From contig WJMF01000086.1 in the NCBI GenBank assembly GCA_014728085.1, positions 1 through 43,393 on the forward strand: 43,393 nucleotides of DNA, read 5' to 3'. The DNA comes from Candidatus Zhuqueibacterota bacterium (GTDB taxonomy: Bacteria > Zhuqueibacterota > Zhuqueibacteria > Residuimicrobiales > Oceaniaggregativiventaceae). The translations under genes and the position numbers were made by a program. Below are positions 2 through 32,900 of this stretch, one piece after another. The notes under the pieces are model-generated. The model was not told where the DNA came from, did not search any database, and worked only from the letters and a program-made list of their open reading frames with translations. Positions within the stretch are counted from its first letter, which is position 1. The number at the start of each line of letters is the position of its first letter.

Positions 2-1642
2 TATTGTGCATCAATTTTAATAATTTTAGTACTCGGCTTTTTCTTTGGTTCCAACAATGCCGCTGATAACAAATGGACGCCCCGGATTCTTTCAGAAGAG
101 GTTCAATCAGAGCACTATCTTCCTGACTTTTCCTATGCCGGCTATCGTTGGGGAGAAAAAGCTCTTCCCGAAAACCAGACAACTCTCAGCGTATTAAGCT
201 TTGGTGCAATACCGGATGATGGTAAAGATGATACCAAAGCGCTTAAAAAAGCGTTTGCAGCGGCACATGAGGTCGAGGGAAAGGTTGTCCTGAGCTTTCC
301 TCCCGGCAAGTTCATCGTTAAGGACATTCTCTTTATTCACCGCAGCCACTTCGTTTTGCAGGGCGCGGGAAGCGGCAAAACGGGTACATGTCTCTATTTT
401 CCCCACCCTCTGAATGATCTTCCCGTACCTGAAATAATGAAAGAACTGCAGGAATATCTTAAAGGGGGGTATTATCGCCAAAATATTAAAGATTTGGGCG
501 TCAAAGTACCCTATTCCCTTTATGCCTGGACAGGAGGATTGATCTGGACCGGCGTCAAGGGGAAAAGGATCAAACGGTATGTAGAAACCTATGATACAGA
601 CCCTGTAATCCTGACCAAAATCAAAAGCGGTAAAAGAGGGCAACATCAAATCACGGTTGATTCTGCCTCCCGATTAAAGACCGGAGAAATTGTCAGCATA
701 GAGTGGTACAACAGACAAGGTGAAGAGTCGACTTTGATCGATCATATCTATGATCATCAAAACGTTGAGGTTGGAAAACGGCACTGGATCAATCCCGATT
801 GGCCCCTGACATCCCAGGAAGTCATGATCACAGCGATAAATGGAGATACCGTTACGATTAAATCGCCTTTAATGCATGATGCCAGGCCCGAATGGACCCC
901 CCAAATTACAAAATGGGAGCATCTCGAAGAGGTGGGTATCGAACATTTATTCATCAGCTTTCCCTTTGATCTTTATAACGCTCATCATGTTGAAGATGGA
1001 TACAACGGGATTTTTCTGAGCGGTCTTGCCCATTCCTGGGTAAAAGATGTTAAAATAAACAACGGGGACAGTGGTGTCATCACTGAAGACTGTGCCAATG
1101 TAACCATTCAAAATTTGGAAACAACGGGCCGTAATTACCACTATACCATTATGTTCGGTAATGTATATAATATGTTGGCTAAAAAAATCACGGTGAATGC
1201 ACCTTGTAAACATTCATTAAGCTGTAATTCCGGATCGAGAAGATGCGTGTTCACGGATTGTGATATCAACATTCAGCCGACGCTGGACCAGCATCGTGCT
1301 GCCAACATGCAAAATTGTTTTGACAATATCAGAATCATTGACAGAGAGCCCCTTCATTCTTTTTTTGGTCTTGGAGGGGCTTCATACTGGAGGCCGGCAC
1401 ATGGCGCTTTTTCAACCTTTTGGAATATAAGTTTACAACTCGACTATCCTCATACAGCGGATACTGCTATTCAGCTAAAAGGAATCACCGAAGGTCCGTC
1501 AGCACGGCTGGTTGGAATAAACGCCAATTATCCCCTGGAAATATTGTATGGGCCGAATGCCTATAAAGAAGGCATTAACAAACGCAATATTACCGTGCCC
1601 TCACTTTATGAATATCAATTAAAAGAACGGTTGACAAAATAA
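2..1642 (+). CDS. Pectate-lyase-like right-handed beta-helix protein (5' end outside window)
   Basis: The frame is open from the first bases, so the gene begins upstream of the window. The first visible residues (SILIILVLGFFFGSNNAAD) look like the hydrophobic core and cleavage region of a signal peptide, so perhaps only a few residues are missing. About 55 residues further on, SVLSFGAIPDDGKDDTKAL is the usual opening of the pectate-lyase superfamily (Pectate_lyase_3) beta-helix domain, followed by GAGSGKTG and by repeated short beta-strands (for example GIFLSGLAHSWVKDVKINN). The product is probably a secreted or periplasmic polysaccharide lyase or epimerase. The substrate cannot be read from sequence, but the next gene is an alginate-lyase-fold lyase, which suggests a uronic-acid polymer. 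An internal TTG at 356 would discard the leader and first beta-helix strands and is not the start. Confidence 0.85.
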   Translation, partial: YCASILIILVLGFFFGSNNAADNKWTPRILSEEVQSEHYLPDFSYAGYRWGEKALPENQTTLSVLSFGAIPDDGKDDTKALKKAFAAAHEVEGKVVLSFPPGKFIVKDILFIHRSHFVLQGAGSGKTGTCLYFPHPLNDLPVPEIMKELQEYLKGGYYRQNIKDLGVKVPYSLYAWTGGLIWTGVKGKRIKRYVETYDTDPVILTKIKSGKRGQHQITVDSASRLKTGEIVSIEWYNRQGEESTLIDHIYDHQNVEVGKRHWINPDWPLTSQEVMITAINGDTVTIKSPLMHDARPEWTPQITKWEHLEEVGIEHLFISFPFDLYNAHHVEDGYNGIFLSGLAHSWVKDVKINNGDSGVITEDCANVTIQNLETTGRNYHYTIMFGNVYNMLAKKITVNAPCKHSLSCNSGSRRCVFTDCDINIQPTLDQHRAANMQNCFDNIRIIDREPLHSFFGLGGASYWRPAHGAFSTFWNISLQLDYPHTADTAIQLKGITEGPSARLVGINANYPLEILYGPNAYKEGINKRNITVPSLYEYQLKERLTK

Positions 1643-1672: not shown

Positions 1673-2944
1673 ATGAACAGAAAAATAAAATGCATACCTT
1701 TGATTGCCCTTTTAATCCTTACCCTGGTTAATAAAAGCTCAATCTGTTGCCAAAATCTACAAAATCCAGAATCTCGGGTCAGAATCTTACCACGCGTTTT
1801 CCTTCTCAATCCGCATGATTTGGCAGCAGCAAGACAAAATCTGTTTGCCGGGGACAAAACGTTATCAGCAGCCCTGGAAAAATTAAGAGACAAAGCCGAC
1901 CAGGCTCTGCAAGCCGATCCTCTTTCGGTAATGGATAAACCCGCCACACCGCCGAGTGGCGACAAGCACGATTATATGAGTTTGGCGACTTATTGGTGGC
2001 CCGACCCGAATTCTGAGGACGGATTGCCCTATATCTGGAAGGATGGCATAAGCAATCCGGAATATTTGAATTATGACAGAATACCCCTAAAAAAAACAAT
2101 AAAGCGCGTCACCACCCTGGCATTGGCCTATTATTATAGCGATTATGAGCCTTATGCAGCTCATGCGGCAACATTGCTGCGCGTCTGGTTCTTGAACGAA
2201 GAAACGCGTATGAACCCGCACCTGCAGCATGCTCAGATCATTAAGGGCGTAAATAAAGGCCGGGGCGTCGGTATCATAGATACAAGGAGATTTACACAAC
2301 TGGGCGAGGCGATCGGTTTGATTTCACATTCGAATAGCTGGACAGCAACGGATCAATCGGCCATGGAACGCTGGTTCGAGCAATACCTGAACTGGCTTGT
2401 CAACAGTAATCATGGTAAAAATGAAGCTGATAGAAAACACAATCACGGCACGTGGTATGATGTCCTTACAACCTATTTGGCATTATTCATAAATAATGAT
2501 ATATTGGCAAAAGAAATTCTTGAAAAATTTCCGCAAAGGCGAATCGCGGTTCAAATCGAACCGGATGGACGGCAGCCCATGGAAATTAAGCGAACACGGT
2601 CTTTTAATTACAGTGTCATGAACCTGAAAGGTCTGTTTTACGCCGCCCTGTTGGGCGAACATCTGGGACTTGATATCTGGCGTTTCCGAACAAAAGATGG
2701 CCGTTGCATACGGAATGCATTGGACTATTTAATGCCCTTTGCAATAAAACAAAAAAAATGGCCATTCCAAATGATTCGTGGATGGAATGAGGATAATTTT
2801 GAAACGATATTCTTTTTGCTCAGAATTGCAGAGCAGAAATACCAACATCCGGAATATGAAAAAATGATCGAAAAATTGCCTTATATAAACGCAGAAACAA
2901 ACTGGATAAATCTTCTCTACCCTAACACGACTGAAAATGGATAA
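1673..2944 (+). CDS. Alginate-lyase-superfamily polysaccharide lyase
   Basis: 423 residues. An N-terminal hydrophobic leader (IPLIALLILTLVNKSS) indicates export. The mature part is the alpha/alpha toroid of the alginate lyase superfamily (Pfam Alginate_lyase; polysaccharide lyase families 5 and 38 share it). Visible hallmarks are SLATYWWPDP near residue 105 and NHGTWYDV near residue 257; the Asn-His and Tyr of the latter are the neutraliser/catalytic residues in this fold. Expected reaction is beta-elimination on a uronic-acid chain such as alginate or glucuronan; which one cannot be told. It starts 30 bases after the upstream lyase with an AGGA ribosome site, so the two are probably one operon. 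Family assignment is firm, substrate open. Confidence 0.85.
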   Translation: MNRKIKCIPLIALLILTLVNKSSICCQNLQNPESRVRILPRVFLLNPHDLAAARQNLFAGDKTLSAALEKLRDKADQALQADPLSVMDKPATPPSGDKHDYMSLATYWWPDPNSEDGLPYIWKDGISNPEYLNYDRIPLKKTIKRVTTLALAYYYSDYEPYAAHAATLLRVWFLNEETRMNPHLQHAQIIKGVNKGRGVGIIDTRRFTQLGEAIGLISHSNSWTATDQSAMERWFEQYLNWLVNSNHGKNEADRKHNHGTWYDVLTTYLALFINNDILAKEILEKFPQRRIAVQIEPDGRQPMEIKRTRSFNYSVMNLKGLFYAALLGEHLGLDIWRFRTKDGRCIRNALDYLMPFAIKQKKWPFQMIRGWNEDNFETIFFLLRIAEQKYQHPEYEKMIEKLPYINAETNWINLLYPNTTENG

Positions 2945-3137: not shown

Positions 3138-4298
3138 ATGGATACAACAAACTCTACAAAAACGCCTACCAGTCCGGTATGGGCGATACTGCGGAATGAA
3201 AAACCGCACCGGTTCGTCTATGCGCCGAATTACTGGCAATGGTTTACACACAGGTTAAATCATAACAACGTTCCGAAGGAAATAAAACACTGCAAAACAC
3301 AGCTCGATGTTATTCAGTATCTGAACCTGGATGTATTCAGCAGGAACATCTATTCAGATCCGTATAAATATTGGTTCGGCGGTTTAAGTGCGGAAATTTT
3401 TGATGGCGTGGAAAGCCGGGAAATGTCACATCAAGATGGCAAAGATATTAGCAGAGAAAAAATATACAATACAAAAAACGGTCGATTAACCGAACGACTG
3501 CGCTATGTGATGAATGAATCAACTCTCGTAACGGAAAAATATCTGATCGATGACTATAAAAATCAATTAGCAGCATTCAAGGAGTTTATCCAGGCCCGGT
3601 CATGGCGTTTTGATGCGGAAAAATACAAAACAATACAAAATTCTGTTGAGAATCGTGGTGTCGTCATTGCCGGCGAGCTTTGTAGTCCTTTAAAAATGCT
3701 GCACTTTTACGTTGGATTGATCGATACGACATATCTATTGGTCGATTTTGAAAAAAAAGCCCTTGAATTGATGCAAATCCATGAAGAGCAACAACTAGAG
3801 CTTCTCAAACAAATGCTCCAGGCGGGAGTAAAGGTGGTGATGAGCATGGACAACCTGGATGCAAGTTTTCATCCTCCGGATTATGTCGAAAAATATTCAG
3901 CCTCTTTTTATGAAAAAGCAAGTGCACTCGCTCATCAATATAAAAGTCGTTTTTTCATCCATGCCTGTGGACAGCAAAAAGCAAATTTATCCCTGATCTC
4001 TTCTCTCGGTGTCGATGGCCTGGAAGGCCTGGTTTATCCACCGCTGGGTGATATCGAAATGGAAGAGGCTTTAAAAATGACTCACGACCGATTTATCATT
4101 ACTGGTGGTATTAGCGCTCATGAAACGCGTAATTTGACAGAGAAAAAGGAAATTTTCGATTATGTGAAAAACCTGTTCGACAGGGTACGCCCCTATTCAA
4201 ATCGTTTTATTTTCTCGGCCAGCTGCAACACCGCAATTGATACATCATGGGAAACAATCAAGCATTTCCGGGATGCGTGGTCAGAATATAACTCTTAA
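3138..4298 (+). CDS. Uroporphyrinogen decarboxylase family protein (corrinoid methyltransferase-type)
   Basis: 386 residues with the URO-D TIM-barrel C-terminal half: FFIHACGQQKANLSLISSLG (His-Ala-Cys-Gly near residue 273), then GLEGLVYPPLGDIEMEEAL and the closing ITGGISAHE strand. True HemE enzymes are somewhat shorter and carry an N-terminal arginine motif for the porphyrin carboxylates that I do not see. The H-x-C-G strand is the zinc-ligand region in MtaA/MtbA-type corrinoid methyltransferases of the same superfamily. Role as a methyl- or substrate-handling enzyme in catabolism is inference. The gene is followed after 13 bases by the Nramp-like transporter, so the pair is likely co-translated. 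A MetH-reactivation-domain gene at 10.2-10.9 kb adds to the corrinoid theme, but no corrinoid-binding protein lies in the window. Confidence 0.75.
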   Translation: MDTTNSTKTPTSPVWAILRNEKPHRFVYAPNYWQWFTHRLNHNNVPKEIKHCKTQLDVIQYLNLDVFSRNIYSDPYKYWFGGLSAEIFDGVESREMSHQDGKDISREKIYNTKNGRLTERLRYVMNESTLVTEKYLIDDYKNQLAAFKEFIQARSWRFDAEKYKTIQNSVENRGVVIAGELCSPLKMLHFYVGLIDTTYLLVDFEKKALELMQIHEEQQLELLKQMLQAGVKVVMSMDNLDASFHPPDYVEKYSASFYEKASALAHQYKSRFFIHACGQQKANLSLISSLGVDGLEGLVYPPLGDIEMEEALKMTHDRFIITGGISAHETRNLTEKKEIFDYVKNLFDRVRPYSNRFIFSASCNTAIDTSWETIKHFRDAWSEYNS

Positions 4299-4311
4299 CA
4301 AGGAAAATTCT

Positions 4312-5562
4312 ATGAAGCTTAAAAAACTGTTTTATAGCTTTTTACCAGGTATTTTTCTAATCGGATACAATATCGGTACCGGAAGTGTCACCTCCATGTC
4401 AAAGTCGGGTGCTAATTACGGAACATCCCTGCTCTGGACCGTTGCGATATCCTGCCTGATCACCTATTATTTAATTACCCATTTCAGCCGCTTCACCCTC
4501 GTCACGGGCATGACGGTGCTGGAAGCGGTGCGCAAGCATCTTCATCCCTGGTTGACCTGGTTCTTTTTGGGCGCGATCTCTATAATCATTATCGGAGCGG
4601 TTATGGGTGTAATGGGCGTTATTGCCGATGTGCTCGAAGCCTGGTCCTGGCAAGTCTTCGAGACAGGCATCCCCTCAGTCATCTGGGCCATATTCCTTTC
4701 TACACTGATTCTACTGTTTTTCTGGACCGGTAACACCAATTCAGTAAAAACCATGTTAAGCTATCTGGTCATTCTGATGTTCTTTGCATTGATGGCTAAT
4801 CTCTTTTTTGTCATCCCCGATATCAAGATTATCCTGCAAGGTTTGATCCCAAGTATTCCTAAAGATGTGGTGCAAAGCGATAACAGCGCCCTGCTTATTA
4901 TGGCCAGTATGGTCGGCACCACCGTATCCGTTATTGTATTCCTGATTCGCTCGATATTGGTCAAAGAATCGGATTGGACGGTGGCAGATATAAAGGCGCA
5001 AAAACGGGATGCCCGTCTGAGCGTCATCGGTATGTTTTTGGTCAGTACCGCCATAATGGTATCGGCAGCGGCTACTCTGCACGCAAGACAACTGGCCATG
5101 AACAACGCCTCCGAGATGATTCCCTTGCTGGAGCCCCTTCTTGGCACGGCTTCTATCACCGTGATGGCTTTTGGAATCCTGGCAGCGGGACTCTCCTCCC
5201 ACATCCCCAACATCATGGTGATTCCATGGTTGTTAAGCGATATCAAATCCGAAAAGTGCAATCTTAAAACACCTCTTAATAGAACGATTATTACTGCCTT
5301 GACGCTGGCTGGGATTACGATTCCTCTGTTCAACGCCAAACCCGTCTTCGTAATGCTTTTATCACAGGGTTTGCTCGCTATTTTGCTGCCGGCCATCGTT
5401 GGTGTCATTTTTTATCTAACATCCTCAGGTCAGCTGATGAAGGAGCATCGGAATAAAACCAAAGATACCATCATTCTTGCTTTTATCCTGCTATTCGCTC
5501 TCTTTATGGGCGGTGTGGGCCTGGTTGGATTTATAAAAGATATGTTATCACTTATAGTATGA
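4312..5562 (+). CDS. Divergent Nramp-family membrane transporter lacking metal-ligand motifs
   Basis: 416 residues with about eleven hydrophobic helices. The first helix region (FLPGIFLIGYNIGTGS... then GANYGTSLLW... and LVTGMTVLEAV) aligns with helix 1 of Nramp transporters. The family's DPGN metal-binding motif reads G-T-G-S here, and the helix-6 MPHN motif falls where this protein has SVIV (VGTTVSVIVFLIRS). The Asp, Asn and Met that hold the metal are therefore gone. It probably keeps the LeuT-type fold but moves something other than Mn2+/Fe2+; the magnesium-type Nramp relatives show that ligand loss can change substrate. The start at 4312 follows an AAGGAAAA site; an extension to 4237 would overlap the upstream gene and is unlikely. 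Context suggests a product of polysaccharide or methyl-compound breakdown. Confidence 0.75.
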   Translation: MKLKKLFYSFLPGIFLIGYNIGTGSVTSMSKSGANYGTSLLWTVAISCLITYYLITHFSRFTLVTGMTVLEAVRKHLHPWLTWFFLGAISIIIIGAVMGVMGVIADVLEAWSWQVFETGIPSVIWAIFLSTLILLFFWTGNTNSVKTMLSYLVILMFFALMANLFFVIPDIKIILQGLIPSIPKDVVQSDNSALLIMASMVGTTVSVIVFLIRSILVKESDWTVADIKAQKRDARLSVIGMFLVSTAIMVSAAATLHARQLAMNNASEMIPLLEPLLGTASITVMAFGILAAGLSSHIPNIMVIPWLLSDIKSEKCNLKTPLNRTIITALTLAGITIPLFNAKPVFVMLLSQGLLAILLPAIVGVIFYLTSSGQLMKEHRNKTKDTIILAFILLFALFMGGVGLVGFIKDMLSLIV

Positions 5563-6953: not shown

Positions 6954-8708
<1,755 letters not shown>

Positions 8709-9687: not shown

Positions 9688-10005
9688 TTGAACATTTACA
9701 TTGGTAACCTGCCAAAATCCACAGACGAAGAGACTGTCCGCAAGCTTTTTGAAGAACACGGAGAAGTTTCTGAAATTAAATTAATTAAAGATCAATACAC
9801 AAACGAACTTCGTGGTTTTGGATTTGTCACCATGCCTTCTCAAGAGGAAGCCAAGAAGGCGATTGAGGAAATCAACGAGACCGAGCTGGGAGGCCGACAA
9901 GTGATTGTAAACGAAGCCCGGCCTAAAAAGGACCGATCGCAGGGACGCAGAGGTGGCGGTGGTGGCAGAGGTGGCTCTAACCGATCGAGATCGCGTTCCT
10001 GGTAA
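9688..10005 (+). CDS. Small RRM RNA-binding protein with glycine/arginine tail
   Basis: 105 residues. A single RNA recognition motif fills residues 1-80: RNP2 is IYIGNL (residues 3-8) and RNP1 is RGFGFVTM (about residues 42-49), with the aromatic positions needed for stacking on RNA. The tail (GRRGGGGGRGG, then SRSRSW) is the glycine/arginine-rich extension seen in bacterial and cyanobacterial cold-induced Rbp proteins. It starts at TTG, supported by AAAGGAG about six bases upstream; no ATG fits the fold. Likely role is RNA binding or chaperoning in the cytoplasm. It stands alone with its own terminator. Confidence 0.92.
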   Translation: MNIYIGNLPKSTDEETVRKLFEEHGEVSEIKLIKDQYTNELRGFGFVTMPSQEEAKKAIEEINETELGGRQVIVNEARPKKDRSQGRRGGGGGRGGSNRSRSRSW

Positions 10006-10029
10006 CACAAAAACACGATATTGAATAGC

Positions 10030-10065
10030 AGGTCTTGTATTGAAAAATACGGGACCTTTATTTTT
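10030..10065 (+). terminator. Intrinsic terminator after the RRM gene
   Basis: A 12-bp stem (AGGTCTTGTATT at 10030-10041 with AATACGGGACCT at 10046-10057, two G-U pairs) is closed by a GAAA tetraloop and followed by a T-rich run (10058-10065), 24 bases after the stop codon. Confidence 0.85.
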
Positions 10066-10170
10066 CGGTTTTTTTCACACATCAAAAACATCACAAAGCA
10101 TTGGATTTGCCAGGGGAAAAAATTAGTGCGGGATTATTATATCGTATAATCCTGTAACTGTATTCAGAAC

Positions 10171-10854
10171 TCAAGCGTGATGAATCGCCTGCCAGAGCTC
10201 TTCATTAAAAGCGACCCGTCTCGAGGGGCAATTATCTCTTCGGCATACCTCGCAGCTGCGAAAATCCGTTTCTGTGGGAAAATATATTCCTGAAACGGTT
10301 TTGTTGGGGATCATCAAACAGGATTCGGTGAGATGAACACCCAGGTTCTCCTCTACGTCGCCCAAAAGGGCAAACAGGGCTTTTTGCTGCTCGATGGGCC
10401 AAACCGCAACATCAGCTGATCCCGGCTGCATGGAAGCTGTCTTGCCGAGACGATAGGTATTTTCCAAATGTTCATGCAACGCGGTATTGGCGGTATCGAG
10501 CATGGATTGTTTTATCAAATCCCACCAGAACGCTTTAAGCATATCGCCGTCATCCTTGTATTCCTCATCCATTTCATGGCCGCAGGTGGCGACATAGGGA
10601 AAAACGCGCTCCACCTCTTTGAGATGAAGAGCCAGAGTCCGGCTTTTAAAGGTGACATCATCAATCTGCAGCGTATCTTCATTCCTTTCGGTAACATAGG
10701 ATACCGTATACGCCGCTTTGGGCCGGCCGATATTTTTTGACAGCTCGATTAATTTCAAAAGCTCCGTTTCATCTTCCGAAGCCGCTGCGATATGGGCTTG
10801 TTTTCGCATCGTTTCCGCATTCGGAGAAAAATCAATATTATCCAGAATATTCAT
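10171..10854 (-). CDS. MetH-reactivation-domain-like protein (corrinoid activation)
   Basis: 227 residues, a free-standing relative of the vitamin B12-dependent methionine synthase activation domain. Features: VATCGHEMDEE near residue 90, the helix DLIKQSMLDTANTALHEHLE, then SMQPGSADVAVWPIEQQKAL (the S-x-G-Y/S-x-D-x-x-x-W-P-x-x-Q signature near residues 140-158) and LTESCLMIPNKTVSGIYFP. The end has CEVCRRDNCPSRR, three cysteines that could ligate a metal or FeS cluster, a feature of the short stand-alone forms rather than of MetH. In MetH this domain binds SAM for reductive re-methylation of cob(II)alamin; the stand-alone role is presumed reactivation of a corrinoid protein. Same strand as, and 177 bases downstream of, the PfkB kinase. 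Confidence 0.75.
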   Translation of the reverse strand: MNILDNIDFSPNAETMRKQAHIAAASEDETELLKLIELSKNIGRPKAAYTVSYVTERNEDTLQIDDVTFKSRTLALHLKEVERVFPYVATCGHEMDEEYKDDGDMLKAFWWDLIKQSMLDTANTALHEHLENTYRLGKTASMQPGSADVAVWPIEQQKALFALLGDVEENLGVHLTESCLMIPNKTVSGIYFPTETDFRSCEVCRRDNCPSRRVAFNEELWQAIHHA

Positions 10855-11031
10855 GTTTATGCTCTCATTTTACAAGATGATCAATGCTTTTGCCTATATC
10901 AATGTAACTTTAATTGCCCCTATTTTCCTCAAGGCATAGCGCCTCTCTGGCATTGATGATGTGATCGTTTGGCCGATAAAACCGACTTGTTCGATACAAC
11001 ATTATCCATGGACATTTTAAAAAGTATTGCT

Positions 11032-12225
11032 TTATATGTTTGTATCGGCGGGGCTGCTCCAGAGTCGTTTTTCAGGATTCCAGGTCCAGCCGTATTTACC
11101 GAGATCAATGGGATGCATCTCCAGAGTATTGCTTTGTAACAGTCGCTCGGAATCTTCCCAGCTTTTGACGCCGCTGATGGCGTCGAATGCCTGAACATTT
11201 TCCCATCCGACGAGACAGGCGAATTTAATACACTCCTCCAGACTTTTATTACGTATAAAAGCGGACAAAAAGCCGGCGATGGAGGAATCACCGGAACCGG
11301 TGGCACTCGCCACCTCCCGAGCCTGAAAGGCCGGCGAAAAAAGTTCGCGCTCGTTCCAGTTTTCCAGAAGGTCGGAACAGAGGAGATCAAAATTATCGTG
11401 TCGGGCGGTTCTAAAGTAAAATCCTTTATGACCGGCCTTGAGGGCGGTCATGTGAGCTCCCATCTCGAGCAAATGCCCGGCGAGCTCCGTATAGAGATCA
11501 AATTCTATAAAATCGAGAAGATCTGCATTTTGATGTTGTTTTTTCATTTGCTTGAACTTGTCGGGATCGAGCATGTATAAAATCTCCTCAACAGAGGGGA
11601 AAAAAATATCCACATAAGGCAGAACATTTTGCAAGATGTCAGCCCATGGTGCTTTCCCGGCAACCGATTCGGGATCAGGCAGAGCCATGTCCAGTGAGGT
11701 AATAGCGCCGCATTCACGCGCAATTTGCATCACCCTGACCAGTTCTTCGCCCTTTCCGGCGTACATTTTTTCCATCAAAGGCGGATAGCCAAAGTGAAAA
11801 TGTTTGCACTGCGAGATCAGCTCAGGATCGAGATCATCCGCTGTAAAGCTATCATTGGTACCGGGACTGTGCAAAAATATTCGGTCAATATTGGGGGGTG
11901 CCAGGGCGATCGTATAGGAACTGGCACTTTTTTCCGCCTTTTTCATCCCTGCGGTATTTCCGGTCTTTTCCAACTGACCGGAGGTCAGCTGTCCCAGCGG
12001 ATCGTCGCCAACGCGGGCACAAAAACTAACGCTGTTTCCGAGTTTTTGCAGCGCGATACCGGTATTGGAAACCGGACCACCGGTGCTGATGATGCATTTC
12101 TCCATGTTCACCAACTTACCGGGGGTCAGAATCTCTTCGATTTTATCGGAACTGGTTTTGGTGAACCGGGGGATCAAATCCAGACACACATGACCGGCGA
12201 CCATGATATCATATTTTTTTGGCAT
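11032..12225 (-). CDS. PfkB-family carbohydrate kinase
   Basis: 397 residues, ribokinase/PfkB fold. The N-terminus YDIMVAGHVCLDLIPRF is the first strand with the substrate Asp; STGGPVSNTGIALQKLG is the first PfkB signature (GG-x-x-x-N). VASATGSGDSSIAGFLSAF is the second signature, with the anion-hole G-S-G and the catalytic base Asp. It is longer than ribokinase because of an insert around residues 215-245 and a WNPEKRLWSS tail. It should phosphorylate a sugar or sugar acid with ATP in the cytosol; the substrate is unknown. It is preceded by a strong promoter and a LacI-like palindrome, so it is probably induced by its sugar. Confidence 0.9.
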   Translation of the reverse strand: MPKKYDIMVAGHVCLDLIPRFTKTSSDKIEEILTPGKLVNMEKCIISTGGPVSNTGIALQKLGNSVSFCARVGDDPLGQLTSGQLEKTGNTAGMKKAEKSASSYTIALAPPNIDRIFLHSPGTNDSFTADDLDPELISQCKHFHFGYPPLMEKMYAGKGEELVRVMQIARECGAITSLDMALPDPESVAGKAPWADILQNVLPYVDIFFPSVEEILYMLDPDKFKQMKKQHQNADLLDFIEFDLYTELAGHLLEMGAHMTALKAGHKGFYFRTARHDNFDLLCSDLLENWNERELFSPAFQAREVASATGSGDSSIAGFLSAFIRNKSLEECIKFACLVGWENVQAFDAISGVKSWEDSERLLQSNTLEMHPIDLGKYGWTWNPEKRLWSSPADTNI

Positions 12226-12499: not shown

Positions 12500-13166
12500 T
12501 TGGGTTTTCCATCTTTGGATCATTTTACGGTCTCGGGGTCGAGAATTGTTGATTATTCCTTGCCCGAAAGAGAACGACCTATGGATTGCCTGAAAAAGCA
12601 ACATGAGGAGAGTGGCAAAATCCTTTCAACAACAAGGACAAGCCCAACGGTTATTATCCTGGATCGAAAGAGGGTAAAACAAAAGATTGAGCAACTTCCC
12701 GGGACTGAATTGCCTTCCGGCAGTCGCCAGATCGGCATATTTATAAAAAAATATCAATCTCAGTACTCTTTTAAATTTTCTGCAAGATCCAAACGACCCG
12801 GTTACTGACGATAAAATACAGAGTTTCGGTACTGCGCCGATGATAATCAGTGATTTTAACAGATTTACAGGCGGTGAACACCATTATGCCACCTCAGACA
12901 CCATCGGAATCGGCATCATGAATCGATTTGAAAACGCCAATGTCGTCTTAAAAGCCAATAGAATTTCCTACAACCACCCCATGGACAGGACCGCAATGAC
13001 GCCCGCCCTCACTTTTTACCATAATTCCTCTGTTTTCCTGCGGACAACCTATTTCAATCTTCCGGTCATGACTTTTGGCGAATTGCATGGTAACATGTCT
13101 GATTATACATCCGCGGACATTTATGCCTGTGAATCCCGTCCCTGGGACAATTCACATATCTCTTAA
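12500..13166 (+). pseudogene. Frame-broken remnant of an unidentified gene
   Basis: Two overlapping plus-strand frames look protein-like in succession: 12500-12750 (KQKIEQLPGTELPSGSRQIG) and then, after a +1 change near 12750, a frame ending at 13166 that contains LLNFLQDPNDPVTDDKIQSF, MIISDFNRFTGGEHHYATSD and LTFYHNSSVFLRTTYFNLPV. Neither has a ribosome site. The second frame has no start near its open boundary (TAA at 12744-12746). A single decayed gene is the simplest reading. It ends opposite the 3' end of the RiPP precursor (4-base overlap). Family not recognised; a chance open frame is possible. Confidence 0.3.
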
Positions 13167-13351
13167 GATCCGATTTCCTTGCAAGCGAGCAACGGTCCGC
13201 AATAACCGGACTGCAAAGGACCGCTAATCAAACCAAATGATAATTTGCAGGCTGCCAACACTACCTCTTCGGATTTGAGCTCTACCTTTTGTAATGTTGG
13301 TTTGGAGTAAGGTTTTTTGCCCGTTTGGTTGGTGATTTTTTTACCCTTCAT
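13163..13351 (-). CDS. Putative RiPP precursor peptide
   Basis: 62 residues, starting at ATG 13351 behind GGAG (10-base spacing). The leader KKPYSKPTLQKVELKSEEVV is of the K-x-Y-x-K-P-x-L-x-x-V-x-L-x-x-E-E type found before cysteine-rich cores of radical-SAM-modified peptides. The core follows VLAACK and contains three cysteines (residues 35, 51, 57) among Gly, Pro and Ser (ISGPLQSGYCGPLLACKEIG), ending in Gly-Ser. A HPr-kinase-like gene lies 1.6 kb away; such kinases phosphorylate the terminal Ser of some lasso-peptide precursors. The upstream open frame runs into this gene without a stop, so a longer read-through product is formally possible, but the ribosome site and leader pattern support this start. 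The family call is from pattern recognition. Confidence 0.6.
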   Translation of the reverse strand: MKGKKITNQTGKKPYSKPTLQKVELKSEEVVLAACKLSFGLISGPLQSGYCGPLLACKEIGS

Positions 13352-13825
13352 GATATATGCTCTCCATACCTGATTTCCCGTTCTTTCGGGGGCTCTGTCA
13401 TCTACTTTTTCAGAATTTTCTATTTGCGGTATCAGCCCCATCATCTCCACCCGAAGATGTGTGACTTGACTCAACCGGAGTTTCGGAATCGCCATATTGC
13501 ATACGAACCCCGCCGGTACACTGGCCGAATAGAGATCGCAGTTCCGGCATGGCGTGCGACGCGTCTGTTTTTTTGCCCTCACACTCAGCATAAATGTGTG
13601 CCGACCCTGGTAAAAAGTGCCCTGACACGACATCAAACAGGGACTCAGGCGGCCAAAAGCATCGACATCGCGGATGCTTATACAGCGGCTTGATACAAAC
13701 AAAGGAGCATTCGTTATGCTATCCTTTGTTAAGATACTTTCCCCTCTCCCCGGTGTTCCCGAAATGGTGATCCACAAAGTTGCCAAAAAAGCAAAAACAA
13801 TAGCAGAATTGAAGCTAAACCTCAA
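13352..13825 (-). pseudogene. Cysteine-rich fragment resembling a SPASM domain
   Basis: The frame is open from 13825 and in phase with the precursor peptide. RCISIRDVDAFGRLSPCLMS fits the first half of a SPASM domain, where Cys precedes a D-x-x-G-x-x-x-P-C turn, and TPCRNCDLYS...PAGFVC fits the second Cys cluster. No radical-SAM CxxxCxxC core is present, so at most the C-terminal part of a peptide maturase survives. A neighbouring frame also has a SPASM-like stretch (MPELRSLFGQCTGG), which suggests indels. The resemblance is suggestive only. Confidence 0.35.
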
Positions 13826-14511: not shown

Positions 14512-14916
14512 ATTTCTCCCTTTCCATAGCATAGACCATTATATCGTATAATACGATATCTTTCAAAGGATAATATATTCTAATTTTTTCCCCTTCTTTG
14601 TACAACGAATATCAACTCTGGGTTTAGATTTTCAAAAACATCTTGATTATATTATGCAATTTTATTAGTTTCAACACACTTGAGCAAAATACATCTCATG
14701 GCGTTTGTCAGCATCGCGTCATAAATCAGAGAAAAAATCAATGGACACCTCTTATCGAGATTTGTGTAAAAATTTTTCAGTATCTCTGCTATAAAAAAAG
14801 CATACTTGTTTGCATCTTTTGCCACCATAGACAACTATTCAATAACCGCTTTAGATGATGATACAACTTGAATAATTTTCTCCAAAGCGTGGACCAACTT
14901 ATTGTGGATGGTATGG
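14512..14916. other. AT-rich gap with a possible PqqD-like scrap
   Basis: No intact gene. Just before and overlapping the HPr-kinase-like start, one plus-strand frame reads LNNFLQSVDQLIVDGMDV, which resembles the C-terminal helix of PqqD-type peptide-recognition proteins, but stops precede it in the same frame. A PqqD remnant would suit the context; the evidence is thin. Confidence 0.2.
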
Positions 14917-15786
14917 ATGTTTCAATACAAAGTGGCCAATACGGTCTTTCATATCATAACACCCGATCACATAAAAACGTCTGTTGATTCTGCATATGAC
15001 GATTTTCTCTGCAACGATGATCATGCGGATATCCTCATAGAAACCAGATACAACACAACACCCGATATTGAATTAGATCCCCAAAAGATTATTTTTGACT
15101 CACAGGGTAGCTGGAAGTTGTATCGAATCAACGATAAAAATGTTTTTACCACTACCACTCCCCTGCTCGGTCCCGACCCCTATCGCATTGCGGTATTTAA
15201 TGATTCCTATACCAAAGGAATAATCTATATCAATATCCCGGAAGACTGGTTTCAGAAACGCGAAGAGCTACCCGATCCTCTGGAATTTCCATTATCAGAA
15301 ATACTTATGGTCTCCTATCTGTCAAAACAGCGCGGCGTCATGTTTCACGCCTGCGGTATTCAGGATGGTACCAAAGGGTTTTTATTCAGCGGCAATTCAA
15401 CCCATGGCAAATCAACCACAGCCCAGTTATGGCAAAACCACGCAAGAATACTCAACGATGACCGTATAATTGTTCGGCGGGAAAACGGGATATTTAAGAT
15501 GTACGGTACGCCCTGGCACGGTACCTTTGCCGGTGTGGCTGCTGCTTCGGTTCGGCTGCATAAACTCTTTTTTCTGCGTCATGCCGGCAAGAATCAGTTG
15601 ACGAAAGAATCGGGTATTAAAGCGACATCCATGCTCTTTACCCGTTGTTTTCCCCCTTTTGGCAATCAAAAGGGAGTTGAATTCACCCTGGATTTTTGCA
15701 CACAACTTGCCACATCCATACCTTGCTATGATTTTGGATTCGTTCCTAATGCATCGATTATTGAGTTTATCAGAAATTCGCCTTGA
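14917..15786 (+). CDS. HPr-kinase-like protein, probable RiPP-associated kinase
   Basis: About 289 residues. SGNSTHGKSTTAQLW (near residues 158-172) is the P-loop, and RILNDDRIIVRRENG gives the Asp-Asp following strand typical of HPr kinase/phosphorylase-like proteins in peptide-modification clusters. GTPWHGTF follows, as in those relatives. The N-terminal half (FQYKVANTVFHIITPDHIK, then DPYRIAVFNDSY) is the unrelated front domain of this group, not the HPr kinase N-domain. It likely phosphorylates a peptide, perhaps the terminal Ser of the 62-residue precursor nearby. Start chosen at ATG 14917; TTG 14902 and ATG 14908 are alternatives and no ribosome site decides. It appears intact amid decayed genes. 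Confidence 0.7.
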   Translation: MFQYKVANTVFHIITPDHIKTSVDSAYDDFLCNDDHADILIETRYNTTPDIELDPQKIIFDSQGSWKLYRINDKNVFTTTTPLLGPDPYRIAVFNDSYTKGIIYINIPEDWFQKREELPDPLEFPLSEILMVSYLSKQRGVMFHACGIQDGTKGFLFSGNSTHGKSTTAQLWQNHARILNDDRIIVRRENGIFKMYGTPWHGTFAGVAAASVRLHKLFFLRHAGKNQLTKESGIKATSMLFTRCFPPFGNQKGVEFTLDFCTQLATSIPCYDFGFVPNASIIEFIRNSP

Positions 15787-20227: not shown

Positions 20228-21907
20228 CTAGGCATTATGAACTTTTTCAGCCAGAAAAATCTGAATTTCATCCGGCGTTTTTGATTTGCTGAACAACGAT
20301 ACCGCTATATTAGCGATGATGGCCAGCGGCGCGCCCAGCCAGGCAAAATACCAGGCATTCAGATAGTAATTAATCTGTTCTTGCCAGGGCAGTTGACCAC
20401 CGTATTTGCCGACGATAAAATAGACCAGAGCGATCAGCGCAACCGCGGATCCGACCAAAAGACCGGCCCAGGCGCCTTTTCGATTCGAACCGCCCCACCA
20501 GATTCCCAGCAGAAAGAGCGGGAAAATGGTACATCCGGCGAGCGAAAAAGCAATGGCGACCAACTGAGCGATCAGCCCCAGTTTTAAAAGCGCGACAATA
20601 GCCACAGAAGCGGCCATGATGATGGTTCCGATACGCGCCATGAGCATTTGTGTACGTTCCGTTGCGTTCGGATTGATGGTTCTGTAATAGAGATCATGGG
20701 AAAAGGCTGATGCGCCGGCAACCAACAGGCCGGAAACGGTAGAAAAGGCGGCGGAAATCGCTCCGGCAGCCAGCAAACCGACAATCAGCGGAAAAACGGC
20801 ACCGAGCTGAGCGGTATAGACGACGATAGCGTCCTTGGCCAGAGCACCGACCTCGGGATTCGATGAAAGGACTTTGCCAAACACGGAATAAACCGGGGCG
20901 CTCCAATAGAGCAAACAAATAAAGAAAAGGCCCCAGACCACGGACCAGCGAGCATCGCGGGCTTTGGGAACGACATAAAAACGCTGAATAACGTGGGGCA
21001 GTCCGGCGGTTCCGATCATTAAAGAAAAACAAATGGCAATCCACTGAAAAGCGGTTTGGCCGGTGGCCGGATCCCACGGCATGGCAAACTCCGGAACCGG
21101 CAGGGTGGCAAAGTCATGACCAAGCGCCGATATTCCTTTTGCCGGTGCCAGGCCATTGACCGCATCGGTTACGACCTGTCCGTATCCCACCTGGGGAATG
21201 AGCCAAAAATAGCCGAATTTATATGTTAAAATGAACAGTGGAATTATAAATGAAATAATAATAATAACATACTGGACCTGCATATTTTTGGTAACCCCCA
21301 GCATACCGGAGATCAGGGTATAGGCTAGCACAACCGAGGCACCGATAATCACGGCCCAGGTATAATCGATCCCCATCACCCATTTGAACATAATACCGAT
21401 TCCGGCAAACTGACCGACGCAATAAGAAAAAGAAATAAAAATGGCAAGCGAGGCGCCGTATCCGCGCAAGCCCTTGGAATAGTATCGATCGCCGATAAAA
21501 TCGGCGGCTGTATATTTACCATACCGTCTGATTTGTCCGGCCATCAGAATAAGCAAAAGAACATAACCACCTGTCCAGCCGACGACATAAGAGAGGCCAT
21601 GATAACCGGATGCATACATGATTGCTGCCATACCAAGAAAGGAGGCGGCACTCATCCAGTTCGATGCAATGGCCATACCTGCACCCACCGGCGAGATCTT
21701 TCGGCCCGCAGCCCAATAGGTGGACGTATCTTTTGCGCGATTGAAAAGGCCGATCATAACAAAGCTGATCAAAATCACGATGAGCAGAATAGCCGGTCCG
21801 ACTTTGAATTCCCCTTCCAGCGTGGTAGCGCTGGACGTATCTGCCCAAATCGGTAAACTCGTGCATAAGATCAAAAACGGGGCAAGTAAACTCGACTTTT
21901 GTAGCAT
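20228..21907 (-). CDS. Acetate-type sodium/solute symporter (SSS family, ActP-like)
   Basis: 559 residues from ATG 21907, which has AAGGAG seven bases upstream; an extension to 22006 would overlap the preceding gene. A cleavable leader (LLAPFLILCTSLPIWA) precedes the helices, as in ActP. Markers: STYWAAGRKISPVGAGMAIA, SNWMSAASFLGMAA (sodium-site helix 1), YGKYTAADFIGDRYYS, GTAGLPHVIQRFYVVPKARD and SAAFSTVSGLLVAGASAFSH. These are typical of the acetate/pyruvate branch rather than the sugar branch. It is 28 bases downstream of the DUF4212-like gene, which supplies its partner subunit, and 152 bases upstream of the porin. Confidence 0.88.
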   Translation of the reverse strand: MLQKSSLLAPFLILCTSLPIWADTSSATTLEGEFKVGPAILLIVILISFVMIGLFNRAKDTSTYWAAGRKISPVGAGMAIASNWMSAASFLGMAAIMYASGYHGLSYVVGWTGGYVLLLILMAGQIRRYGKYTAADFIGDRYYSKGLRGYGASLAIFISFSYCVGQFAGIGIMFKWVMGIDYTWAVIIGASVVLAYTLISGMLGVTKNMQVQYVIIIISFIIPLFILTYKFGYFWLIPQVGYGQVVTDAVNGLAPAKGISALGHDFATLPVPEFAMPWDPATGQTAFQWIAICFSLMIGTAGLPHVIQRFYVVPKARDARWSVVWGLFFICLLYWSAPVYSVFGKVLSSNPEVGALAKDAIVVYTAQLGAVFPLIVGLLAAGAISAAFSTVSGLLVAGASAFSHDLYYRTINPNATERTQMLMARIGTIIMAASVAIVALLKLGLIAQLVAIAFSLAGCTIFPLFLLGIWWGGSNRKGAWAGLLVGSAVALIALVYFIVGKYGGQLPWQEQINYYLNAWYFAWLGAPLAIIANIAVSLFSKSKTPDEIQIFLAEKVHNA

Positions 21908-21935
21908 TGGATTCTCCTTTTTATTTGGGCAAATA

Positions 21936-22640
21936 TTATTCTTCGATTTTGTGTTTTTTGTGCAGCTTGTCGGTTGACCTGGCATAGATGATACAGAGAA
22001 CGACAAAGAGTATCAACAAGAATTGAGCGGTATACCAATAGTGAAAAGGAAATCCTATAAAGGTCGTGTCCGTCAAAAAACTGCGGTTATGAACAAGATA
22101 GAGCTGCATAATCGAGGGGATTTTTTCTTCCATCTCCGCAGTAAATTCCGCATTTTCGACCGGGATCAGGGACGTCGGCAGGAGATCGTAAAGTATCTTG
22201 TCAAATCCACCGTTCTCCAATCCCAATAGCGGACGCAAATCATTTTCGGATAAATAGGCAAGCGGATCCTGACCGAATGCATTTTTTTGTTCAGCCGGTA
22301 AAATATCCAAAACAAGTTTTGAAACAGCGAGTTTTAAAACAGACTTGTGCTCTTCCTCAAGGGCGACATTTTTTCCCAGTACAGCGAGTGAAACCTGAGC
22401 CAATTCCTGCTTGAGGATTAAATCCCGGGTTTCGCTATCGACAAAACCAGGCCATAATTGTTCAAATTTTAAATAGTTATCTTCCGGCACCGGCTTGTTG
22501 AAAACCATGAGCAAAACCTGAAAACCAAAAACAGCAATAGCCCAAATAAGCGCCAGGATAATAATGAGTTTCATGTTTTTGCGGGCGTGCTCCGTGACCG
22601 GTCTGAAAAAATTCACCTTCACTTTTGCCGTATTTTCCAC
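21936..22640 (-). CDS. Enlarged DUF4212-like symporter subunit
   Basis: 234 residues from GTG 22640, chosen because AAGGAG stands seven bases before it and the preceding frame lacks support. The N-terminus ARKNMKLIIILALIWAIAVF and the C-terminus GFPFHYWYTAQFLLILFVVL followed by IIYARSTDKLHKK are the two helices of DUF4212 small subunits that accompany SSS symporters. Those proteins are usually about 80-110 residues. Here about 130 extra residues, mostly helical and acidic (residues about 55-185), are inserted between the helices, presumably outside the membrane on the periplasmic side. Operon position directly before the symporter supports the assignment. Confidence 0.7.
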   Translation of the reverse strand: MENTAKVKVNFFRPVTEHARKNMKLIIILALIWAIAVFGFQVLLMVFNKPVPEDNYLKFEQLWPGFVDSETRDLILKQELAQVSLAVLGKNVALEEEHKSVLKLAVSKLVLDILPAEQKNAFGQDPLAYLSENDLRPLLGLENGGFDKILYDLLPTSLIPVENAEFTAEMEEKIPSIMQLYLVHNRSFLTDTTFIGFPFHYWYTAQFLLILFVVLCIIYARSTDKLHKKHKIEE

Positions 22641-29928: not shown

Positions 29929-32900
29929 TTATTTCAAAAGTTGCATCTTTTTGACCAAAGTTGTATTATCGGCCTCGAGTTTGTAAAGATAGGTTCCACT
30001 GGGAACATCAACCGCATTCCACTGCAGAGAATAATTTCCGGCTGCTTGCATTTCATTCACCAGTGTCGTCATTTTTTGGCCAAGAGTATTGAAAATGGTT
30101 AAATTTACTCGAGAGGCCCTTGGTATAGAATAATCGATTTTTGTCGTCGGGTTGAAAGGATTGGGAAAATTCTGTGCCAGATTGAACTCTGACGGAACCT
30201 GTCGATCATCTTCAACTCCGGTCAGAACTCCAATCCTGGAAGGTGAACTTTCATTGCCCGAAAAATCGGAAGCGACAACGGCATAATAGTATTCCGTTCC
30301 GACCGTAACATCTTTATCGATGTAATTGTTATCGATACAAGTTACCAACAAATTATCGGCATTCGGGACAAAAGAAGACTGGCTGGCGCGGAAAATTCTA
30401 TAGTTGGCAAGATCACCTGCACTGGATCTGTTCCAGCCAATATAGTTTCCCCCATCAATAGAATTAACAAACAGACCGGATAGCGGTTGCGGACTCAAAT
30501 TGTCGACCGAACAACCACTCATAGGCGCAGAAGAATAGTAAACAGAAGGATCCGTGGTCTGTGCCTTGACAAAATAAGTGGTGCTATACATACCACCTTT
30601 TCTGCTGGAATCCTTGAGCGTTGGCACAACTGCATGATAAATATTCTGCTGAATGGCAGGAATATCGATGATATAATCCCATTGTCCTGCAGGTATCGAG
30701 CTCGTCTTTGCCATTTTCAGGGAGGGATCAATCTTTCGATAGATGGAATAGCTGCTGATTTTGCCCTCATCGTCGAGCGGATGGCGGTTCCAGGTTAACC
30801 GCACCTGGCGACCTTGATCATTAGGCACATCTCTGACCGCTAGTAGCTGAAACATACCACCTGGTACGATATAATCGCCTTTGGGATTCATCTTCATCAG
30901 TTGAAGCATGAGTTGACCGACCTCGGCATTGTCGGTAAAATAGCCTCGTATCTCGTCATACTGGTCGGCAAATTGTTCAAACAACCGAGAACCCGCTCCT
31001 TTGGCGTAGAGGGGAATAAGCTGGTTGGTATGATCGCCGCTGTGCCATTCGGAACCGGGCAATTGTCCTTTTCCGTTGTTTACTGGTTCATTCAAGACAG
31101 GAGTCTCAGAGCCCTCTGCGGCACCGTCAGTACCGGAACCAGGACCGGTAAAATAACCCGTTTCATGGTCACCGGTTACGATCACCAACGTTTCATCCCA
31201 ACTGCTGTTGGCATTCACCCAGCGAATGACCGCGTCAACAGAATGATTAAAGTCGATTTGTTCTTCGATCAAACGGGCGGTGGTGTTACCATGACCTGCC
31301 CAGTCTACGGCTCCCCCTTCAACCATTAAAAAGAAACCATCGCGATCATTATCGAGGACATTCAGCGCAGCGGCAGTCATGATTTGCAGAGAGGGAACGC
31401 TATCGTTCAGCGCATCCGTATATGGTGCGTCGGTCGTATTGGGAGCATCAGGTCCCATACCAGCGGTTTGACCTGAACGATTGTACTGCAATGTAGCAGC
31501 AACCTGTGCGGTTCCCAATACCCGTTTGGGGGTTGAACCGAAAACCAATTTTTCAAAATCTCTTTTTTTATCAATAAAATGCCATCTATCGGTGACACCA
31601 TCGGCATCAGCATCATTCCCGGCTATACCGCCTACCAGTTCATTCCAGGTCTCCGTGCCGCCGACATATTTATAATTATTCGGAGTATTCACGGATTGAT
31701 TATCATTATCGAACCAGGGGTGGCCAGCACCCATAATCACATCCAGACCGCTATAGTACACCATTTCCTTACCGATGCCGGTATAATCATTTCTGTCAAT
31801 ATTATGAACCGCCATGGCGGCAGGTGTGGCATGCGTCCATTGCACAGAGGAGACGACACCGGTTGCCTTGCCCTTTTTCTCAGCCAGTTGAACGATATTT
31901 TCGAGTTTATTACCCCGGGCATCCAATCCCATAGAGTATTTATAGGTTTTGACGCCGGTAGAGAACGCCGATCCCGATGCGGCAGAGTCAGTCGGTTTTT
32001 GTTTGACATAATCAAACCAGGTCCAGGCGCGATCCGGTTCATATGCACCCTGAGGATTTTCGAAATCAGGTGTACTGTTCATGGTTTTATTCAGAGCCAT
32101 AAACGTACTCATATAATACTGTACCGGCCAGTTTTCATAGGATTGAGTTCCCTTGGCACCATATTGATAATAATCCGTAGCAATTACCTGGTTTAGACCC
32201 CACCCATCACTGATCATAAGAACGATATTTTTAGGAGGCACCATATAAGTGGCTGGATCCGGCCACAAGGTCATCATGGTCTGACCGATTTCGCTGTTGG
32301 TCAAATAGGTGCCGCGTTTGACATCGAATTCATCTGCATGAGTATCCAGTATATCACTTCCGGCGCCCCTGGCAAAAAGAGGGATAAGTTGATTGGTATG
32401 ATCTCCACTGTGCCATTCAGTTTCAGGAAGCATACCGACGCCTTTGTTCACCGGCTCGGTCCAGAGAGCATCTGATTGACCTTCAGCAACATCATCAGGT
32501 CCGGAATTGGGTCCGGTAAAAAATCCGGTTTCATGATCACCGGTCACAATAATCAGGGTCTCATCCCAGTTGCTGTTGTTATTCACCCATTCTACAGCAG
32601 CTTCGACGGCAAGATTAAAATCAATTTGTTCCTCAATCAGACGGGCGGTAGTGTTGCCATGGCCGGCCCAGTCGACTGCGCCGCCTTCGACCATCAGAAA
32701 TAAACCACTGGGATTGTTATCCAAAACATTCAAGGCACCGGCGGTCATGGTTGCCAGGGAAGGTACGTTTTGGTTCATCGTATCAGTAAAAGGAGTATCG
32801 GTCGTATTCGGCGCCACCGGGCCCTGACCAGCAGTTTGTCCGGAACGGCTGTATTGCAATGTAGAAGCAACCTGGGCGGTTCCCAAAACACGTTTGGGGG

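Follow-up and report, generated by a model that had tools for sequence, protein, structure and literature searches.

What does a transporter of the Nramp fold carry once the residues with which Nramps bind metal are gone, and does it work together with the URO-D-superfamily protein encoded directly before it? These questions are raised by contig WJMF01000086.1 from Candidatus Zhuqueibacterota bacterium (KSB1; GenBank assembly GCA_014728085.1); the window analysed here is this one whole contig (43,393 nucleotides) of a 5.19-Mb genome that is 97.9% complete. The original prediction described a transporter that had lost its metal ligands and that might form, with the URO-D protein, a two-gene uptake and conversion system for an organic or methylated substrate. 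We find that the altered site characterizes a subfamily of PF01566, here the GTGS subfamily, and consider it probable that this subfamily no longer binds metal and serves to import monosaccharides, chiefly sugar acids (hexuronates, 2-keto-3-deoxygluconate (KDG)), across the inner membrane. A two-gene system was not established.

The URO-D and transporter genes are genuine open reading frames (ORFs) on the plus strand and, as first described, are separated by 13 bases. For the transporter gene, the natural start codon is the ATG at 4312; the TTG at 4237 given in the ORF list would overlap the URO-D gene. The features of the transporter are as follows.

4312..5562, plus strand: Nramp-fold transporter of the GTGS subfamily, 416 amino acids, proposed sugar/sugar-acid importer (PF01566, predicted model, subclade, neighbourhoods).
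4375..4386, plus strand: codons G22-T23-G24-S25, in place of the helix-1 metal motif DPGN (alignment).
4918..4929, plus strand: codons T203-T204-V205-S206 at the helix-6 break, in place of A/C-x-x-M (alignment).
4948..4950, plus strand: codon R213 in helix 6b, aligned with a His in solved bacterial Nramps (alignment to BfraNramp and DraNramp).

The transporter matched PF01566 with 187.9 bits (cut-off 29.8), and structure prediction gave it an Nramp fold with high confidence (predicted local distance difference test (pLDDT) 93.2), the closest PDB chain being the Nramp of D. radiodurans (6c3i; Z 44.7, root-mean-square deviation (rmsd) 2.7 Å over 376 residues). Thus, the protein shares the Pfam family and the LeuT-type fold with broken helices 1 and 6 of canonical Nramp/SLC11 MntH proteins (D. 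radiodurans, B. fragilis). By contrast, the DxxN helix-1 and A/CxxM helix-6 signature of these metal transporters is absent, with GTGS and TTVS (GxxS, TxxS) instead. Alignment to the solved Nramps upheld the replacement of DPGN in helix 1 by GTGS and of M-P-H-N in helix 6 by S-V-I-V, and restored no metal ligand; the helix-6 His residues are replaced by Ile and, downstream, by Arg 213. In Deinococcus numbering, the replaced positions are D56 (G22), N59 (S25), A227 (T203) and M230 (S206). The alignment indicates that all protein side-chain metal ligands of helices 1 and 6 are gone.

These replacements are not peculiar to the window protein. GTGS was found in 61 of the 63 rows of the family alignment; the remaining two are outgroups with GPGS. 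In all 61 GTGS rows, the helix-1 Asp is replaced by Gly and T203, T204, R213, W222, D233 and S295 are invariant, while 59 of them have S, G or A at residue 206. Judged by this alignment, GTGS, together with GTT-x-S/G/A in helix 6 and the Arg of helix 6b, is the fixed signature of a whole PF01566 subfamily with a putative site of its own. Decay of a single gene as the cause of the ligand loss was ruled out because GTGS is invariant across the family; the ligands are indeed absent, as originally claimed, but not through a private loss. Carriers of the GTGS family belong to Bacteroidota, Planctomycetota, Verrucomicrobiota, Kiritimatiellota, KSB1, Acidobacteriota and others, with Pontiella, Arenibacter and Melioribacter among those in culture, and a scan of viral contigs contained no relative of the transporter. 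Other PF01566 types encountered included GPGS, GPGT, GAGD and GTAD, and one sequence had canonical DPGN. A GTAD-type Nramp-like protein is encoded on a Mesobacillus plasmid immediately downstream of genes for CoA-transferase A/B and thiolase (L189, 3432-4697) and is another catabolic Nramp relative.

The closest relatives of the window protein are found among genes of a sugar-acid type. In a quick tree, in which several long branches including the window row were flagged, the window protein is part of an 8-row subclade (SH-aLRT 99), and all seven other members have sugar-acid-type surroundings in which UxuA (mannonate dehydratase), RraA and GH115/GH67-like genes (GH, glycoside hydrolase) recur. 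In Pontiella sulfatireligans (L106), the gene order is short-chain dehydrogenase/reductase (SDR), UxuA-like, UxaC, RraA, transporter (9992-11245) and GH115, and the match to UxaC (glucuronate isomerase) has 582.3 bits (cut-off 387). Similarly, L109 contains SDR, UxuA, a GH67N-like gene and the transporter; L112 contains a GH67N-like gene, RraA, SDR, the transporter and UxuA; L110 contains RraA, SDR and the transporter, after which the contig ends; and in L113 UxuA is downstream of the transporter. The transporter lies in a cluster with GH115 and GH95 in L114 (Phycisphaerae) and directly follows a GH67N-like gene in L166 (Kiritimatiellae). Near this subclade in the tree, L107 (Caulobacterales) has genes for UxuA, a fructuronate-reductase-like protein, ManD and a GlcNAc 2-epimerase/mannose-isomerase-like protein.

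Outside the subclade, the order Eda (2-keto-3-deoxy-6-phosphogluconate (KDPG) aldolase), sugar kinase and transporter was found in L231, L232 and L233 (Planctomycetota) and in L237 (phylum of Pontiella). In all four, Eda exceeds the curated cut-off, and the kinase has its best match in the kinase half of a model for a KDPG-aldolase/kinase fusion. The enzyme set of GTGS loci (UxaC, UxuA and oxidoreductase, or Eda and sugar kinase) is that of UxaC/UxuA hexuronate operons, in which the importers are of the ExuT/KdgT type; the GTGS loci differ in that the importer would be of the Nramp fold. P. sulfatireligans F21T is reported to use D-glucuronate without an identified transporter dedicated to it (PMC7356697), an independent phenotype that fits. 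The GTGS gene in its glucuronate operon is a candidate for the missing glucuronate importer.

We surveyed the neighbourhoods of the subfamily more widely. When one genome per species was scanned, 308 relatives emerged; the 80 with the best scores, which are not a random sample, were analysed together with flanks of up to 10 kb. Genes were called as mechanical ORFs, same-strand neighbours were clustered, cluster representatives were scanned against Pfam and NCBIfam, and all 80 loci were tallied. Neighbours were counted if they were on the same strand within 250 bases, and SDR, SSF, sulfatase, URO-D and PhyH genes were left out of the carbohydrate-type count. A same-strand neighbour was present in 74 of the 80 loci, and 63 of those 74 had a carbohydrate-type partner. 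The commonest partners were xylose-isomerase-like TIM barrel or GH28 proteins (33 loci) and GH20-like proteins (22 loci), followed by GH127/C5-epimerase-like (17), NagB-like (16), amidohydrolase (13) and Gfo/Idh oxidoreductase (11) proteins. The TIM-barrel cluster proper was found in 30 loci, in 29 of them at most two genes from the transporter. In total, these observations support an operon context of sugar catabolism, in which GTGS proteins differ from canonical Nramps, and bear out the organic part of the predicted substrate, which they sharpen to sugars and sugar acids.

In three genomes from the phylum of Pontiella (L205, L206 and L207; also L235-L237), the GTGS transporter is fused to a C-terminal beta-propeller, and the propeller-fused protein of L207 (as L237) exceeds the Lactonase cut-off.

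Several points weigh against sugar-acid import. Carbohydrate-type partners are lacking in 11 of the 74 loci, and genomes rich in carbohydrate-active enzymes raise the background for the figure of 63 of 74. In many members, the adjoining genes are not uronate genes but encode NagB-like, amidohydrolase, GH20-like and Gfo/Idh proteins; therefore, the substrate differs between members, and contact with a carboxylate cannot be the sole role of R213. In some operons, another transporter accompanies the GTGS protein (SSF in 5 loci and, by eye, a TRAP-like pair in L162). Moreover, an unannotated GTGS-family relative with 41% identity, in two pieces on a record of 834 kb labelled as an E. coli plasmid (L193, 6001-7208), lies between enoyl-CoA hydratase and FAD-binding protein genes with a CoA-transferase nearby. 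We found no transport assay of any GTGS member. Finally, UxaC had no match in the host genome, in which ordinary glucuronate catabolism is therefore unlikely.

What would the window protein then import? Two further genes precede the URO-D gene, and the original placement of the pair in a polysaccharide-lyase cluster was correct.

2..1642, plus strand: pectate-lyase-like beta-helix protein, 5' end missing at the contig start (PF12708, 42.3 bits).
1673..2944, plus strand: Alginate_lyase-family (PF05426) protein, ending 193 bases upstream of the URO-D gene (281.4 bits).

The beta-helix protein also partially matched the BT_3328 family hyaluronate lyase model (58.5 bits, cut-off 1100). While free glucuronate is an unlikely substrate in the host because UxaC is missing there, the operon has two lyase-type genes and, therefore, an unsaturated or keto-uronate such as 4-deoxy-L-erythro-5-hexoseulose uronate (DEH) or KDG is the better guess; KDPG aldolase is present in the host genome. 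In the mechanism that we propose, the two lyase-type enzymes would cut a uronate-containing polysaccharide, and the uronate set free, probably an unsaturated or keto form, would enter through the transporter, which would work by rocking-bundle alternating access with H+ or Na+ as the driving ion. An uncharged pocket would be lined by G22, S25, T203 and S206, with R213 as a possible substrate contact. The URO-D protein, with its thiol-type His-Cys-Cys site, would act as an accessory enzyme in this operon and not as a general partner of the transporter.

The window contains two sodium:solute-symporter-type genes on the minus strand, at 6954-8708 (SSF confirmed by Pfam) and at 20228-22006 (judged by eye only), each a possible alternative sugar importer.

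A non-metal Nramp relative is not in itself a new idea because of the precedent of PxpT, an NRAMP-family member that is required for growth of C. glutamicum on 5-oxoproline (PMC13274462). Likewise, PF01566 is reported to hold non-SLC11 outgroups (PMC9606685, PMC10606218). Sugar acids as a substrate class would be new within the literature searched: judged by titles and abstract openings of a limited collection, we found no description of a sugar-importing Nramp. The window protein scores simply as Nramp in Pfam, so that GTGS proteins are easily taken for metal transporters when metal homeostasis or carbohydrate metabolism is reconstructed. If they import sugar acids, they would supply the missing uptake step for cultured strains such as Pontiella and would represent a natural experiment in which one fold switched from metal cations to sugars.

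Among the alternatives to sugar-acid import by the transporter, the one that fares best, although we consider it unlikely, is that the URO-D protein and the transporter are a dedicated two-gene system for uptake and demethylation of a methylated compound, e.g. a methylated uronate. The short spacing of the two genes in the window favours it.

3138..4298, plus strand: URO-D-superfamily protein, 386 amino acids, with a His-x-Cys...Cys triad, thiol-type methyl/alkyl-transferase-like (PF01208, MtaA profile match, predicted model).
3960..3968, plus strand: codons H275-A276-C277, of which H275 and C277 are triad residues 1 and 2 (URO-D alignment).
4224..4226, plus strand: codon C363, triad residue 3 (URO-D alignment).

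This protein matched PF01208 with 49.4 bits (cut-off 23.9), and its model (pLDDT 90.9) resembles UROD 1j93 (Z 26.3, rmsd 3.1 Å over 311 residues) and MtaA (Z 24.5). With a profile of its group, the closest solved sequence was M. mazei MtaA (4ay7; 1.1e-13), with H275, C277 and C363 on the H-x-C and C of MtaA, and the triad is kept in 7/7 members of the subfamily. In the URO-D superfamily, His-Cys-Cys is reported to mark S-methyltransferases, while O-methyltransferases have carboxylates or non-coordinating residues in place of one Cys or of both (PMC10418091). Because of this mark, we regard a role of the window protein as a thiol-type methyl or alkyl transferase, with a predicted zinc site, as likelier than one as an O-demethylase; the triad makes the methylated substrate of the original prediction less likely. 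While the window protein has the UROD fold and the aligned triad in common with MtaA-type methylcobamide:CoM methyltransferases, membership in the curated MtaA/CmuA family (TIGR01463) was rejected (32.8 bits, cut-off 235.4). Moreover, the window gene cluster encodes no corrinoid protein, and B12-binding_2 matches in the host genome were only on three other contigs.

The relatives of the URO-D protein do not accompany the transporter. The nearest, with 25-29% identity and near full-length coverage (277 residues in one), were in 6 of 392 Planctomycetota genomes; six more Planctomycetota genomes had weaker partial matches (E < 1e-12), and 119 genomes from relatives of the host gave, besides the protein itself, only weak matches (best 2.7e-18). 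In the 12-19 kb taken around each of the six Planctomycetota relatives (L225-L230), the transporter was absent in all, while a gene for a PhyH dioxygenase adjoined the URO-D gene in four; URO-D proteins of this subfamily and PhyH are a possible conserved enzyme pair. Separately, a genome from the class of the host (L038) has a PhyH gene after the transporter.

The exact pair of subfamilies was found nowhere else in the genomes searched, and the expectation that it would recur thus failed. A URO-D gene of any kind, from other subfamilies, was adjacent to the transporter in 3 of the 80 loci: clearly in L114 and in L121, which is from a genome of the host's family, and weakly in L143, where the URO-D match is below the Pfam cut-off (18.8 versus 23.9 bits). 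URO-D genes occupied 3 of 153 adjacent slots versus 3 of 741 other slots (Fisher p = 0.066). The host genome has 30 URO-D family matches (28 over the cut-off alone and one more with frame neighbours), a large expansion in which the Zn-ligand motif varies, and by chance about 1.3% of host genes would have a URO-D gene as one of their two neighbours. Adjacency in one genome is therefore weak evidence.

In L166 (9986-11482), on a contig of a metagenome-assembled genome, a shortened GTGS transporter is fused in frame to the C-terminal part of a URO-D protein, which is either a true deletion or an assembly fault.

GH115 and GH67 families release 4-O-methylglucuronate, and L114 and L166, in the subclade of the window protein, have GH115 and a GH67N-like gene, respectively. 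The URO-D protein of L114 has D-x-D...H instead of H-x-C...C, which fits the carboxylate sites reported for O-methyltransferases (PMC10418091). The role of a 4-O-methylglucuronate demethylase was set back for the window protein by its S-type triad and by the lack of UxaC in the host, and demethylation survives only as an idea for the L114/L166 branch. A literature search of the same limited scope listed no paper on a pathway for 4-O-methylglucuronate demethylation. It is a long shot, then, that GTGS proteins are both a new sugar-acid importer family on the Nramp fold, with the cation-binding Asp gone and an invariant Arg for the helix-6 His making an anion/sugar site, and, in a sub-branch (L114, L166 and perhaps the window), coupled to a URO-D methyltransferase that demethylates methylated uronates, e.g. 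4-O-methylglucuronate released by GH115/GH67.

It is quite unlikely that the transporter imports another small organic acid or amino-acid-like compound, as proposed for PxpT/YcsG and 5-oxoproline. PxpT/YcsG is, like the GTGS proteins, an NRAMP-family protein tied to organic-acid catabolism, the YcsG model in the PDB (9a52) has the same fold (Z 39.5), and the CoA-transferase and enoyl-CoA hydratase genes around the relative in L193 fit such a substrate. However, PxpT/YcsG is linked to pxpABC, whereas the window lacks pxpABC, the host genome has no match to LamB_YcsF (pxpA, PF03746), and most neighbours in the subfamily are carbohydrate genes. This distinction is one of gene context. In a search for pxpA-linked Nramps, 3 of 99 related genomes matched, none of them usable for a comparison with the YcsG motif, and YcsG was not among the matches of PDB sequence searches with two divergent Nramps.

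Finally, it is very improbable that the transporter still moves a divalent metal (Mg, Mn or other) through an unusual site to feed metal-dependent sugar enzymes: its fold is near that of metal transporters, B. subtilis YcsG, from a 5-oxoproline operon, is reported as a Mn importer (PMC10448178) and the Mg-transporting NRMTs (e.g. EleNRMT), also a divergent PF01566 branch, vary the site too and have the helix-6 GTT with its Thr in common (PMC8806188), but NRMTs are reported there to retain the helix-1 Asp (DxxG-TxxA/T) while the window protein has GxxS-TxxS, without an acidic or Met ligand in helices 1 and 6, and the neighbours are catabolic genes.

Elsewhere in the window, a short ORF with a C-terminus like that of precursors of ribosomally synthesized and post-translationally modified peptides lies near an HprK-like ORF (13163-13825, minus strand, and 14902-15786, plus strand); both were recognized by eye, and neither matches Pfam. 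At 29929-33681 on the minus strand, the window encodes a protein of 1250 amino acids with two tandem alkaline-phosphatase stretches and a Por secretion tail.

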